NCBI GenBank assembly: GCA_902775355.1
Contig: CACYLY010000051.1
Location: 1 to 33,018, forward strand
Direction: 5' to 3'
From: Oscillospiraceae bacterium
GTDB lineage: Bacteria > Bacillota > Clostridia > Oscillospirales > Oscillospiraceae
Length of the DNA: 33,018 nt
Of the stretch, positions 737-11,995 are shown piece by piece (position 1 is the first letter of the stretch; each line of letters starts with the position of its first letter). Position numbers and translations under genes: made by a program. The notes under the pieces are model-generated. The model was given only the letters and a program-made list of their open reading frames with translations. It did not search any database and had not been told where the DNA came from.

Positions 737-800
737 GCCTTCCCCTTGAGGGGAAGGTGTCGCGGCGCGTCTCACGCAAGCGCCGTGACGGATGAGGTGT
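737..800 (+). repeat. Two-hairpin repeat, copy R1
   Basis: This is the first of several copies of a roughly 60-bp repeat. Its parts are GCCTTCCCCTTGAGGGGAAG (hairpin 1), the spacer GTG, a second hairpin (TCGCGGCGC at the left, GCGCCGTGA at the right) and the end CGGATGAGGTGT. Copies R2 (3250-3343) and R3 (4501-4569) are nearly identical. R4 (4931-4987, inverted) and R6 (5640-5690) share hairpin 1 but carry a different second hairpin. Confidence 0.85.
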
Positions 801-3196: not shown

Positions 3197-3220
3197 GATA
3201 AAAGCCTCCTATTTATAATT

Positions 3221-3248
3221 CGGAATGCGGAATGCGGAATGCGGAATT
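3221..3248. repeat. Four tandem copies of a 7-bp unit
   Basis: CGGAATG is repeated three times and followed by CGGAATT, directly beside repeat R2. It is a simple-sequence tract that can change copy number by slippage, and it lies upstream of serA in the serC-serA gap. Confidence 0.9.
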
Positions 3249-3249
3249 G

Positions 3250-3343
3250 ACGCCTCATCCGCCCCAATTTACGCGTCAAGCCTTCCCCTTGAGGGGAAGG
3301 TGGCACGGCGCGTCTCACGCAAGCGACGTGACGGATGAGGTGC
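3250..3343 (+). repeat. Two-hairpin repeat, copy R2, with inverted ends
   Basis: The core at 3280-3342 matches R1 and R3. This copy also has ACGCCTCATCCG at 3250-3261, inverted relative to CGGATGAGGTGC at 3332-3343 (10 of 12 positions pair), so the element is bounded by terminal inverted repeats. Immediately after it, 3348-3372 (GCCTTCACCTTGAAGGGAAA) looks like a degenerate extra copy of hairpin 1. Confidence 0.8.
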
Positions 3344-3386: not shown

Positions 3387-4428
3387 TTACTTGTGCTCGG
3401 CCTCGAACTTGGTCAGGAACTCGACCAGGGCGACGACGCCCTCCTTGGGCATGGCGTTGTAGATGCTGGCGCGCAGGCCGCCCACGCTCTTGTGGCCCTT
3501 CAGGTTGTCGTAGCCGGCGGCCTTGGTGGCCTTTCATCAGGCTGCGGAACTCCTTGTCCACGGTGCCGCGGAACATCTTGGAGGAATCCAGGAAGTCGTA
3601 AAGGACCTTGGCCTTGTCCTCGTTGCGGCGGGCCATCTCTTCCAGACCGCCGATGCTCTTGAGGTACTTGAAGACCTTGCCGCAGCAGTAGATCGCCCAG
3701 CAGTTGGGGGTGTTGTACATGGAGCCGTTCTTGGCCTGGATGTCATAGCGCATGTAGACGGGCATCTTCGGGTCCAGATCCTCGCGGATCAGATCCTCGC
3801 GGATGATGACGACGCTCATGCCGGCGGGGCCCACGTTCTTCTGGACGCCGGCGTAGATCAGGCCGTAGTCTTCCACGTTGCAGGGCTTGGAGAGGAACAT
3901 GGAGCTCTGGTCGGACACCAGGATGTGGCCCTTGGTGTTGGGCAGCTGCTGGTAGGTCAGGCCGTGGATGGTCTCGTTCTCGCAGATGTAGACGTAGTCG
4001 GCGTCCTCGGGAATGTCCAGATCGGAGCAGTCGGGGATATAGGAGAAGTTGCGGTCCTTGGAGCTGGCGGCCACGATGACCTCGCCGTACTTCTTGGCCT
4101 CGGTGATGGCCTTCTTGGACCAGGCGCCGGTCTCAATGTAGACGGCTTTGCCGTTTTTCATCAGGTTCCAGGGGATGGCGGCGAACTGCAGGGTAGCGCC
4201 GCCCTGAATGAAGAGCACTTTGTAGTTGTCGGGGATGTGCATCAGCTCGCGCAGGTCCTGCTCGGCCTCGTCGGCGATCTGCTGGAAGACCTTGGAGCGG
4301 TGGGACATCTCCATGACGCACATACCGCTGCCGCGGTAGTTCATCATCTCGTCCCGGATCTCCTCCAGGACAGCCTCGGGCATCATCGCGGGGCCGGCGG
4401 AAAAGTTGTAGGTGCGGCCGTAATTCAT
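3387..4428 (-). pseudogene. serC: Phosphoserine aminotransferase, broken by an internal deletion
   Basis: SerC converts 3-phosphohydroxypyruvate to phosphoserine with glutamate and pyridoxal phosphate. The start at 4428 has AGGAGGAACC just upstream, and the protein reads well for 298 residues: YNFSAGPAMMP, the FIQGGATLQF phosphate-binding segment, and AGVQKN with the cofactor lysine K197. After EFRSLM the frame is lost at about 3534. The rest ([31 protein letters not shown], ending [10 protein letters not shown]) continues in another frame to the TAA at 3387-3389. Compared with E. coli SerC about 16 residues (NVPF to LFL) are missing; the two parts plus 16 give 362 residues, the E. coli length. 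So about 47 bases are deleted out of frame. As written the gene cannot make a normal enzyme; a sequencing or assembly error is possible. Confidence 0.9.
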
Positions 4429-4500: not shown

Positions 4501-4569
4501 TCAAGCCTTCCCCTTGAGGGGAAGGTGGCACGGCGCGTCTCACGCAAGCGCCGTGACGGATGAGGTGTC
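4501..4569 (+). repeat. Two-hairpin repeat, copy R3 (flanks the DUF559 gene)
   Basis: It begins TCAAGCCTTCCCCTTGAGG, has the second hairpin CACGGCGC/GCGCCGTG, and ends CGGATGAGGTGT. Its last bases run into the stop codon of the DUF559 gene (TCA at 4568-4570 on the plus strand). It is inverted relative to copy R4 on the other side of that gene. Confidence 0.88.
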
Positions 4570-4927
4570 AGATTCCCTCTGACGTAAGGTGATGTAGAAT
4601 ATCTTCACAGACTGAGTCGAAATGCAGATTCACATCCAGATTGGAGTATCGTAGGACTTGCAAACCAAGTCCGGAAAGATAGTTGTCACGAATACGGTCT
4701 GCATCCATACCTTCGAGTTCAAAATGCTGAGATCCGTCCAACTCAATCACAAGTTTGGAGCTGGCACAGTAAAAATCTACGATATAGCTGCCAAGAACCT
4801 TTTGCCGATAGAAGTTGACGGGAAGCGTACGGAGAAAAACATACCAGAGGTGACGTTCCTCCTTGGTCATTTCTCGTCGAAGCTTCTGTGCATATGGGCG
4901 AAGCCGGGAATTGTTTGTCTTGTTCAT
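4568..4927 (-). CDS. DUF559 (Vsr-like) endonuclease domain protein
   Basis: A 119-residue single-domain protein of the DUF559 family, placed in the PD-(D/E)XK nuclease superfamily with Vsr mismatch endonucleases. Visible are a helical N-terminus (LRREMTKEERHLWYVFLR), then FYRQKVLGSYIVDFYCASSK and LVIELDGSQHFE, with likely metal/catalytic residues D51, E62, D64 and H68 in the usual order. I chose the ATG at 4927 rather than an in-frame ATG at 4957, because the extension would run through repeat R4. The start lies 4 bases inside R4 and the stop overlaps the end of R3, so the gene fills the space between two inverted repeat copies. The DNA substrate is unknown. It sits between the glycine riboswitch and serC and may be co-transcribed with them. 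Confidence 0.9.
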   Translation of the reverse strand: MNKTNNSRLRPYAQKLRREMTKEERHLWYVFLRTLPVNFYRQKVLGSYIVDFYCASSKLVIELDGSQHFELEGMDADRIRDNYLSGLGLQVLRYSNLDVNLHFDSVCEDILHHLTSEGI

Positions 4928-4930
4928 AGA

Positions 4931-4987
4931 ACACCTTATCCGCCCCAGTGTGAGCACTGGGGCACCTTTCCCTCAAGGGGAAGGCTT
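4931..4987 (-). repeat. Two-hairpin repeat, copy R4 (flanks the DUF559 gene, inverted)
   Basis: Read on the minus strand it starts AAGCCTTCCCCTTGAGGG, has the second hairpin GCCCCAGTG/CACTGGGGC (4942-4950 with 4955-4963) and ends CGGATAAGGTGT. Ends and hairpin 1 match R3, but the second hairpin has entirely different, still perfectly paired, arms. Confidence 0.88.
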
Positions 4988-5044: not shown

Positions 5045-5222
5045 CCTCCGTCCTTACCTGAGAGATTCCCTTCGGCCTGAAAAAGCCTCCGGTTGCCCCT
5101 TTGGTGTGCGGGCGAGCCCGCACTTTCCGAAGTGTCGTCCGGATCCGATCCTTTTGCCTGAGAGTTTTTGCATTCCCCTTCGGCGCCGCGGCCAGCGCGG
5201 TCTCTCTCGGTATCCTTCAACC
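5044..5222 (-). promoter_or_regulatory. Tandem glycine riboswitch
   Basis: On the minus strand there are two aptamers in a row. The first runs from GGATACCGAGAGAGACC through GCGCCGAAGGGGAA to ACTCTCAGGCAAAAGGA. The second runs from about ACTTCGGAAAGTGCGGG through GGCCGAAGGGAA to TCTCTCAGGTAAGGACGG. The pairs CCGAAGGGG...CTCTCAGGCAAAAGGAC are the conserved core of glycine riboswitches, and the two-aptamer arrangement is typical. The second aptamer is the more divergent one. It lies about 90 bases after a strong promoter and just before a terminator. Downstream are a DUF559 gene and then serC-serA, so glycine probably tunes serine synthesis; whether it acts as an on or off switch cannot be read here. 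Confidence 0.9.
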
Positions 5223-5639: not shown

Positions 5640-5690
5640 TTGCCCCCCTTGCCTAAAGGGGGGTGCCCCAGTGCGCACACTGGGGCGGGG
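5640..5690 (+). repeat. Two-hairpin repeat, copy R6
   Basis: Hairpin 1 is CCCCCCTT/AAGGGGGG (5643-5650 with 5656-5663); hairpin 2 is GCCCCAGTG/CACTGGGGC (5665-5673 with 5678-5686), the same second hairpin as copy R4. The ends are less conserved than in R1 to R4. Confidence 0.75.
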
Positions 5691-5933
5691 GGATATACCC
5701 CGCATTTCCCCGTTTTCCGGGAACAAAACCCGCGCCGCATCGTCTGATAAATGGTGTCTCTCCGGACCCTGTGCTCGTCGCACCTGCGCCCTCAGCCGGG
5801 GGCCGACGCTCCCCGGGAGCCCTCTGGAACCTGCCCCGCACTTCCGTTGTTGTCAATATGTACAAATTCTGCTTTCGTCCCACAATCTCTTGTGTTCTTA
5901 GCTGATAATTCAATTTTTTCATGAAAGTTCTTG

Positions 5934-11549: not shown

Positions 11550-11570
11550 ATGTTATAACAAGCTTCGAAT

Positions 11571-11995
11571 CCTGTCATCCCGAGCGCAGCCGAGGGATCT
11601 TTTGTTCCGCGCCCTCGTCGCCGTTCCTGTCATCCCGAGCGCAGCTGAGGGATCTTTTGTTTCCCGCCCTCGTCGACGTTCCTGTCATCCCGAGCGCAGC
11701 CGAGGAATCTTTTGTTCCTCGCCCTCGTCGCCGTTCCTGTCATCCCGAGCGCAGTCGAGGGATCTTTTGTTTCCCGCCCTCGTCGACATTCCTGTCATCC
11801 CGAGCGCAGCCGAGGGATCTTTTGTTTCATGCCCTCGTCGACATTCCTGTCATCCCGAGCGCAGCCGAGGGATCTTTTGTTCGCGCCTTCGTCGCCGTTC
11901 CTGTCATCCCGAGCGCAGCCGAGGGATCTTTTGTTCCGCGCCCTCGTCGCCGTTCCTGTCATCTTGAGCGAAGGCGAAGCCGAAGTCGAAAGATC
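11571..11995. repeat. Tandem array of eight 55-bp units
   Basis: Units start (CCTGTCAT) at 11571, 11626, 11681, 11736, 11791, 11846, 11900 and 11955, so the period is 55 bases with one 54. Each has CCTGTCATCCCGAGCGCAGC, CGAGGGATCTTTTGTT and a conserved tail like GCCCTCGTCG plus CCGTT or ACATT. The last unit is different (TCTTGAGCGAAGGCGAAGCC) and resembles the element at 868-941. Because 55 is not a multiple of three and no unit holds a stop, all three forward frames stay open and give look-alike peptides (VIPSAAEGS, CHPERSRGI); these are not genes. The tails are also conserved between units, so it is not a CRISPR array. Confidence 0.95.

Follow-up and report, generated by a model that had tools for sequence, protein, structure and literature searches.

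DUF559 nuclease genes of distantly related bacteria often lie between inverted hairpin repeats: a possible, largely overlooked type of very small mobile element in which the nuclease would spread the repeats

The DNA analyzed in this study (33,018 nucleotides; hereafter, the window) is contig C51 (CACYLY010000051.1) of the 2.86-Mb draft genome of an Oscillospiraceae bacterium (GCA_902775355.1; 92 contigs). Along its minus strand, a tandem glycine riboswitch, the repeat R4, a gene whose product matches Pfam DUF559 (E = 1.1e-29), the repeat R3 and an aminotransferase class V gene follow one another (Table 1). The initial annotation of this DNA, made from the sequence alone, had described the DUF559 gene as enclosed by R3 and R4 in inverted orientation. 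Our analyses bear this out: R3 and R4 possess 34-nt arms (4503-4536 and 4954-4987) that are 85% complementary, and each of them folds into two hairpins that are stabler than 100 mononucleotide shuffles (R3, -18.7 vs. -10.2, sd 2.2; R4, -16.4 vs. -7.1, sd 2.2). R4 consists of a first stem (CCTTCCCC..), a second hairpin (GCCCCAGTG..CACTGGGGC) and a tail (GGATAAGGTG) that lies immediately ahead of the start codon. As had also been claimed, the stop codon shares bases with the end of R3; three bases separate the start codon (position 4927) from the inner end of R4. Of the solo copies noted elsewhere in the window, R1 and R2 are indeed without a gene; a copy with a different first stem lies at 5643-5695. 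In the whole genome, the sequence of R3 has 42 matches, counting R3 and R4, and there are three DUF559 genes.

Table 1. Coordinates of the DUF559 unit, the other repeat copies and the flanking features in the window.
Feature	Position	Strand	Remarks
DUF559 (PF04480) nuclease gene	4568..4927	-	encodes 119 aa; start codon at 4927-4925, stop codon at 4570-4568
R4, 5' repeat of the unit	4931..4987	-	type A by eye
R3, 3' repeat of the unit	4501..4569	+	inverted relative to the gene; type A by eye
R1, solo repeat	737..800	+	type A, without gene
R2, solo repeat	3276..3342	+	type A, without gene; 99% identical to R3
Further repeat copy	5643..5695	+	different first stem (CCCCCCTTG..); second hairpin almost identical to that of R4
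Tandem glycine riboswitch (RF00504)	5046..5219	-	upstream of the unit; anchor for the orthologous site
Aminotransferase class V gene (serC-like; stretch used as query)	3403..4425	-	downstream of the unit; anchor for the orthologous site

Some other features of the window were also noted. Compared to its relatives, the serC-like gene matches with residues 1-298 in one stretch and with residues 294-341 in another, and this copy, or its assembly, seems to be frame-shifted near codon 298 (window ~3403-3540). A second dispersed inverted repeat with 47-nt arms (CTTTCGACTACGGCTTCGCC..) is located at 904-942 and 11957-11995, and a tandem array of 7.4 copies of a 55-nt unit at 11570-11977.

In the general form of the repeat, derived from 62 diverse copies picked by our repeat detector, a loop separates a pyrimidine arm from a purine arm; these are followed by TG, a second hairpin without fixed sequence and a third arm, again of purines (GGATGAGG, GGAGGG and similar). 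The repeat occurs as type A (CC..GG), with GGTGNC...GACGGA, and as type B (GC..GC), with GCTGTC...GACTGA. In 18 distinct inner segments, which were found with a pattern that does not require pairing, the second hairpin pairs over a mean of 5.9 bases, compared to 0.6 in shuffled segments. Because the first stem was misaligned by MAFFT, copies were counted with fixed A and B patterns; these patterns miss subfamilies, such as CTCTCCCC.

The two types show a usual order around the gene. Among 110 units scanned, 35 carry a sense repeat upstream of the gene together with an antisense repeat downstream of it, and the order type A, gene and inverted type B is found in 21 of the 25 that were typed at both ends. 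The window's own unit, in which both ends are type A by eye, departs from this usual grammar. Among the 5' repeats detected, 36/51 end 4-11 nt ahead of the start codon, which places their third purine arm at the position expected for a ribosome-binding site, and in 13 of the 48 detected 3' repeats the stop codon occupies a constant place inside the repeat (+20 to +23). Adjacent repeats no more than 150 nt apart, among 243 detector hits, are oriented +- (33), -- (24), -+ (19) or ++ (18).

DUF559 was detected in 32 of 61 genomes of the genus. Of the 60 matches, 57 were examined, with two weak matches in frames of >1500 aa and a 57-codon fragment at a contig end left out. In a sample of the order, DUF559 was found in 40/147 genomes and 31/86 genera; the order set consisted of 53 of the 65 listed places, after exclusion of three from the window's own genome and nine with E > 1e-12. 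Whether DUF559 genes are flanked by the repeat more often than random genes was a check proposed in the initial annotation, and the answer is affirmative. By one rule for all genes, 21 of the 57 DUF559 genes of the genus had a repeat on each side at a distance of up to 100 nt, compared to none of the 467 other ORFs in these loci; when an overlap of 60 nt was permitted, the counts were 24/57 and 1/467, respectively. A repeat on at least one side was found at 49/57 and 59/467, respectively. The initial annotation had also considered that DUF559 genes elsewhere might lack the repeats. At least one repeat within 260 nt was detected at 50 of the 57 DUF559 genes in the genus and 40 of the 53 in the order, while the remaining 7 and 13, respectively, had no detector hit within this distance. 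No repeat was recognized by eye at the DUF559 genes G020:C131, G058:C14 and L131, and none by the detector and the arm comparison at L244, L261 and L281.

It should be noted that the repeat detector was designed after inspection of the genus flanks; it was also applied to two control families from the same order. The two-hairpin repeat was detected at none of the 30 IVP loci returned and at none of 16 small GIY-YIG genes (the 16 of 30 loci with frames <200 aa). A second test, which compares only the two flanks of a gene and is independent of the detector, identified inverted arms at 27/56 DUF559 genes versus 13/465 ORFs in the genus and at 35/51 versus 4/198 in the order. Of these 17 of 663 control ORFs with inverted arms, ten were named and included genes for GNAT and peptidyl-tRNA hydrolase as well as dnaN and gyrB. 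The 5' and 3' arms of a unit match each other better than they match arms of different units (median scores 24.5 vs. 9.0 in the order and 15.5 vs. 9.5 in the genus), and an arm score of 16 was reached by 13 and 11% of the cross pairs of different units in the genus and order sets, respectively, and by 17% of those in the set of 80 named loci described below. Inverted arms by themselves are not unique to DUF559, as they are also found at 13/30 IVP genes, where they belong to other repeats, and at 2/16 GIY-YIG genes.

The IVP genes (PF05635; L184-L213) were considered as a second cargo of the DUF559 two-hairpin repeat, which was rejected because they have a repeat of their own. Their inverted arms are, by eye, mostly copies of another dispersed repeat that consists of AT-rich arrays with a unit of ~7 nt (e.g., GCATAAT or GCAGAAT); one 7-nt array of that kind (AATGCGG x 4.4) is located at 3217-3247 of the window. 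IVP would thus seem to be another small gene that is paired with a dispersed repeat of its own.

The presence of DUF559 is linked to the number of repeats. The fixed A and B patterns were counted in the 61 genus genomes with the reversed patterns as controls, which yielded one hit in total for A and none for B. Such a comparison had been proposed with the initial annotation, for which repeats equally common in genomes without DUF559 would be an adverse result. The repeats are commoner with DUF559: copies were found in 26 of the 32 genomes with DUF559 (541 copies, median 11), compared to 9 of the 29 genomes without it (74 copies, median 0; MWU p = 7.7e-6, with genomes treated as independent of kinship). 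Among genomes at least 90% complete, 12/14 with and 3/10 without DUF559 contained A/B copies (p = 0.006). The patterns had no hit in 6 of the 32 DUF559 genomes.

In an alignment of 42 DUF559 proteins, E24, L27, Q42, D51, F52, E62, D64, G65, H68, D77 and R80 are invariant, as would be expected of a working PD-(D/E)XK nuclease. A profile search of solved chains returned 3hrl (NGO0050; E 6.5e-25) and 3r3p, a mobile intron protein (E 1.9e-4), along with chance matches to unrelated chains (E > 0.2). The AlphaFold model (mean pLDDT 89.8) was matched by Foldseek to 3hrl (E 1.8e-5) and I-Bth0305I (E 4e-5; TM 0.82 on the target), which were followed by mitoribosomal chains, PvuRts1I and, at rank 8, Vsr (E 0.023, probability 0.99). 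Vsr, to which the initial annotation had related DUF559, is among the nearest folds.

Two contexts of the gene deserve mention. At L074 (4220-6098, minus strand), DUF559 directly precedes mutS (Pfam MutS), and its stop codon overlaps the mutS start; by their 3' flanks, G036:C5, G049:C47, G017:C63 and G032:C85 have the same arrangement, and neighbor grouping puts those of G049, G017 and G032 together with G026:C64 and G043:C107. Vsr acts together with mismatch repair, and the copy before mutS may therefore be a domesticated one. At L044 (7204-8403, minus strand), DUF559, the 3' repeat and RNase H are joined in a single open frame of 400 aa. The DUF559 frames at G060:C65, G033:C14, G036:C30 and G030:C28, which form a group by their neighbors, are long as well (256-359 aa); RNase H is confirmed in L044 only. 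Both contexts, by mutS and by rnhA, look old and vertical, which would suit a repair role there.

At other sites, the unit is present in some relatives and absent from others. At the riboswitch-serC site of the window, we compared 5 of the 10 genomes with a serC match of at least 93%, leaving out L100-L102 (whose upstream DNA differs by eye), L099 (without anchor) and L103. The gene and its repeats are present in G000 and G043; G006 contains a 154-nt composite of type A, spacer and type B without the gene and with the same flank end (AAGCCTTGATATGTATGCAGCGG against AAGGCTTGATTTGTATGCAGCGG); G036 has no repeat; and G021 has, by eye, a collapsed stem and a composite of a different subfamily. Thus, the unit is not fixed at this site, contrary to one of the outcomes that the initial annotation had regarded as unfavorable. 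The empty site that it had suggested searching for was found for another unit. In Sinorhizobium meliloti Ak57, a DUF559 gene is flanked by two composites, the second of which is interrupted by a copy of ISRm16, and the genes that border this unit are adjacent in Shinella sp. PSBB067 (L308 1208-3299 and 5418-6682 match L344 1-2092 and 2086-3350 with 81 and 79%, respectively). No repeat lies within 200 nt of the Shinella junction, and the site is cleanly empty, in a genus other than that of S. meliloti. Presence and absence are therefore observed at two orthologous sites; excision or insertion between near-identical strains was not seen.

Other observations also bear on movement. The 57 units of the genus occupy 37 to 50 gene contexts, and in three Deinococcus hpa operons the unit is found at three different positions, the junctions being approximate. 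Gene and matching repeats stay associated between families: protein identity tracks the similarity of the 5' flanks (Spearman 0.27, reached by 0 of 500 permutations). For example, L143, L148 and L149, which belong to three families, share 84-86% protein identity; their 5' flanks score 76-80 out of 109, and for DNA lying 300-1200 nt beyond, the scores are 27 to 39.5 (vs. a median of 23.5). The block shared in this clade (~540-640 nt) is somewhat longer than the unit. The members of the DUF559 clade of L082, L143, L148, L149, L165 and L253 also have stretches on either side of the unit in common; a terminator-like hairpin lies to the right, and look-alike AACTG.. motifs, recognized by eye at both borders, are perhaps the ends of a larger element. 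Among the 58 of 110 units with an arm score of at least 18, no consistent short target-site duplication was found (k = 4, 5/58 vs. a shuffled mean of 3.3; k = 6, 2 vs. 0.3). Longer direct repeats outside 13 units were mostly additional repeat copies; the 56-bp direct repeat around the unit of L130 is, by eye, not such a copy.

The association extends beyond the order. In the best 80 of 583 loci from named genome contigs, nearly all of them Clostridia MAGs by title and at least five of them (L225, L228, L233, L260 and L273) seemingly counted already among the genus genomes, inverted arms were found at 46 loci and the two-hairpin repeat on either side at 73 and on both sides at 47. At L248, on a contig named Anaerolineaceae, the DUF559 unit is accompanied by the Clostridia-type repeat, as would result from transfer or from mis-binning, and at L291, on a contig named Nitrospirae, repeats of the CCCCCTTT type flank the DUF559 gene on both sides (arm score 19). 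From a plasmid collection, 20 of 42 records with a relative were picked by hand for spread, several of them from one genus. Inverted arms (score 16) were found at 12 of these 20 loci, compared to 2 of 38 control ORFs from 12 of the loci. Those with arms belong to Pseudanabaena, Deinococcus (four), Sinorhizobium (two), Azospirillum (two), Sphingomonas, Sphingobium and Picosynechococcus PCC 7003; those without arms at this score (8/20) belong to Neisseria, Photobacterium, A. brasilense, Picosynechococcus PCC 7002, Synechocystis (two), Azospirillum TSH58 and Methylobacterium, and some of these eight have a one-sided repeat by eye. The arm sequences differ across phyla, and the shape of pyrimidine arm, purine arm and purine arm is, by eye, kept. 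When the DUF559 region of S. meliloti was used for a search, 26 of the 40 matches listed (of 152 records) were confined to stretches of 45-50 nt in the two repeats at its flanks, which indicates that these repeats are dispersed in rhizobia. The RIME repeats of rhizobia, which are intergenic repeats with two palindromes, have a look similar to that of the DUF559-flanking repeats.

In anatomy, the DUF559 unit resembles the REP/REPIN and RAYT (TnpA-REP) system, in which short intergenic hairpin repeats form inverted doublets and bound a small nuclease gene (PMC3116915, PMC3733652). Both have scattered intergenic hairpins, inverted doublets, a boxed gene for a small nuclease and many copies without the gene. 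By membership, the DUF559 unit is not a REP/RAYT system, as the boxed nuclease has a Vsr-like fold and is not a HUH tyrosine (Y1) transposase; moreover, in the Clostridia studied, each repeat comprises two hairpins and a third purine arm, and the left (A) and right (B) ends are distinct. The GTAG tag of REPs is, by eye, absent from the consensus A1. The complement of the type A tail GACGGA contains CGTC, and we considered whether the repeats were CGTC REPs without a transposase; this was rejected, as the CGTC families, in their published description, have one 8-9-bp stem beginning with AT, which does not fit (PMC3733652). In that REP survey, one whole super-family is apparently without a dedicated transposase, and it is not the DUF559-linked family (PMC3733652).

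The DUF559 protein also shares its catalytic fold and core residues with the EDxHD homing endonucleases, which include I-Bth0305I (PMC3943268) and to which a cyanobacterial DUF559 gene has already been assigned (PMC9403480). The sequence similarity to I-Bth0305I is distant (E 1.9e-4), the 119-aa protein leaves no room for a long additional DNA-binding region, and DUF559 is bounded by hairpin repeats dispersed over the genome. No intron was seen, and Rfam gives the glycine riboswitch only in the window. Vsr is similar in fold, and the Caulobacter protein VsrA carries a DUF559 domain (PMC12907096), but the DUF559 unit studied here is carried in a mobile-looking hairpin box. With MITEs and classical transposons, the unit shares terminal inverted ends (27/56 genus units, 35/51 order units) and short gene-less copies; it differs from them in that the boxed gene belongs to no known transposase family and that a fixed-length target duplication was not found. 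Arrays of integron cassettes differ in having varied cargo, as no other ORF of the 467 was boxed by the strict rule and one by the looser rule. Consistent with the initial annotation, which knew of no such system, no description of a DUF559-hairpin repeat system was found in the open-licence literature, although absence there is not proof.

The hairpin-pair anatomy, the oriented ends, the gene-less relatives and the tie between copy number and DUF559 are best explained by a small mobile unit and its offspring. We consider it probable that the 487-bp stretch of the window is a copy of a tiny mobile element and that the solo repeats and composites are its offspring, in a REP/RAYT-like arrangement with an unrelated nuclease. 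The element would consist of a left end (type A), the gene for the Vsr-fold DUF559 protein and, in inverted orientation, a right end (as a rule type B; type A in the window). The tail of the left end can provide a ribosome-binding site, and the stop codon is often provided by the right end. Solo repeats dispersed through the genome and A-spacer-B composites would be non-autonomous offspring, comparable to the REPs and REPINs of RAYT. DUF559 is predicted to bind the hairpins and probably to nick them, or DNA close by, in their single-stranded or extruded state, after which repair or replication would copy the freed element to other places.

The main rival to such a mobile element is a homing nuclease for which the composites are targets. 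Under this explanation, which we regard as unlikely, the repeats are older and were made otherwise; DUF559, as a free-standing homing endonuclease, would cut A-B composites in their center and enter them through repair, so that gene-less composites are uncut targets. Of the two solved folds nearest to DUF559, one is indeed that of the homing endonuclease I-Bth0305I, the gene-less composite at the orthologous site in G006 could be such an uncut target, and at L056 composites are recognized by eye next to the unit, only one of which contains the gene. The S. meliloti unit, however, came or went with its repeats, as the Shinella site has neither repeat nor composite, and the repeat sequence varies across phyla, yet the matched pair is kept, for which repeated re-targeting would be needed. 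That copy number follows DUF559 also argues against homing, though persistence dependent on targets would give the same pattern. Another possibility, which appears improbable, is that the repeats are moved by a different enzyme, such as a Y1/RAYT transposase, with DUF559 as a passenger. Matches to the RAYT-type family Y1_Tnp are found in 33 of the 61 genus genomes, and G039, which is 97% complete and without DUF559, has 25 repeat copies and two Y1_Tnp matches. The presence of Y1_Tnp, however, shows no link to repeat number in the 61 genomes (p = 0.22), G043, G036, G060, G046, G019 and G042 have 17 to 72 copies without a Y1_Tnp match, and nothing else was boxed among the 467 ORFs (0 strict, 1 looser), 30 IVP and 16 GIY-YIG genes.

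An equally improbable alternative is that DUF559 is a domesticated repair gene, encoding a Vsr-like mismatch nuclease, with the hairpins as regulatory flanks that serve as ribosome-binding site and terminator. The Vsr-like fold and the unit located directly before mutS with overlapping stop and start codons are consistent with it, as is the SOS response of a methyltransferase mutant that is caused by the DUF559 protein VsrA in Caulobacter (PMC12907096). It would nevertheless leave unexplained the scattered solo copies, the matched inverted ends, the occurrence in at least 37 contexts and the patchy presence in 32/61 genomes. That DUF559 lands by chance in repeat-rich intergenic DNA, like other small genes, is hardly credible: the repeats are dense at some loci, and a one-sided repeat occurs at 59 of 467 control ORFs, but repeats on both sides occur at 0/467 ORFs and at 0/30 IVP and 0/16 GIY-YIG genes of the same order.

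The arguments for and against a wider reading of the mobile element are, in our view, evenly balanced: DUF559 units may constitute a previously undescribed class of minimal mobile elements in several phyla, in which DUF559 propagates asymmetric A/B ends and which would be the engine of many non-RAYT families of palindromic repeats, independent of HUH transposases. REP-like palindromes occur in many bacteria, and a second nuclease family, unrelated to RAYT, that is tied to hairpin repeats would supply a candidate engine for such palindromes. If true, this would also point to a function for DUF559, which is a domain of unknown function present in several phyla, and the spread of the repeats would become directly testable.
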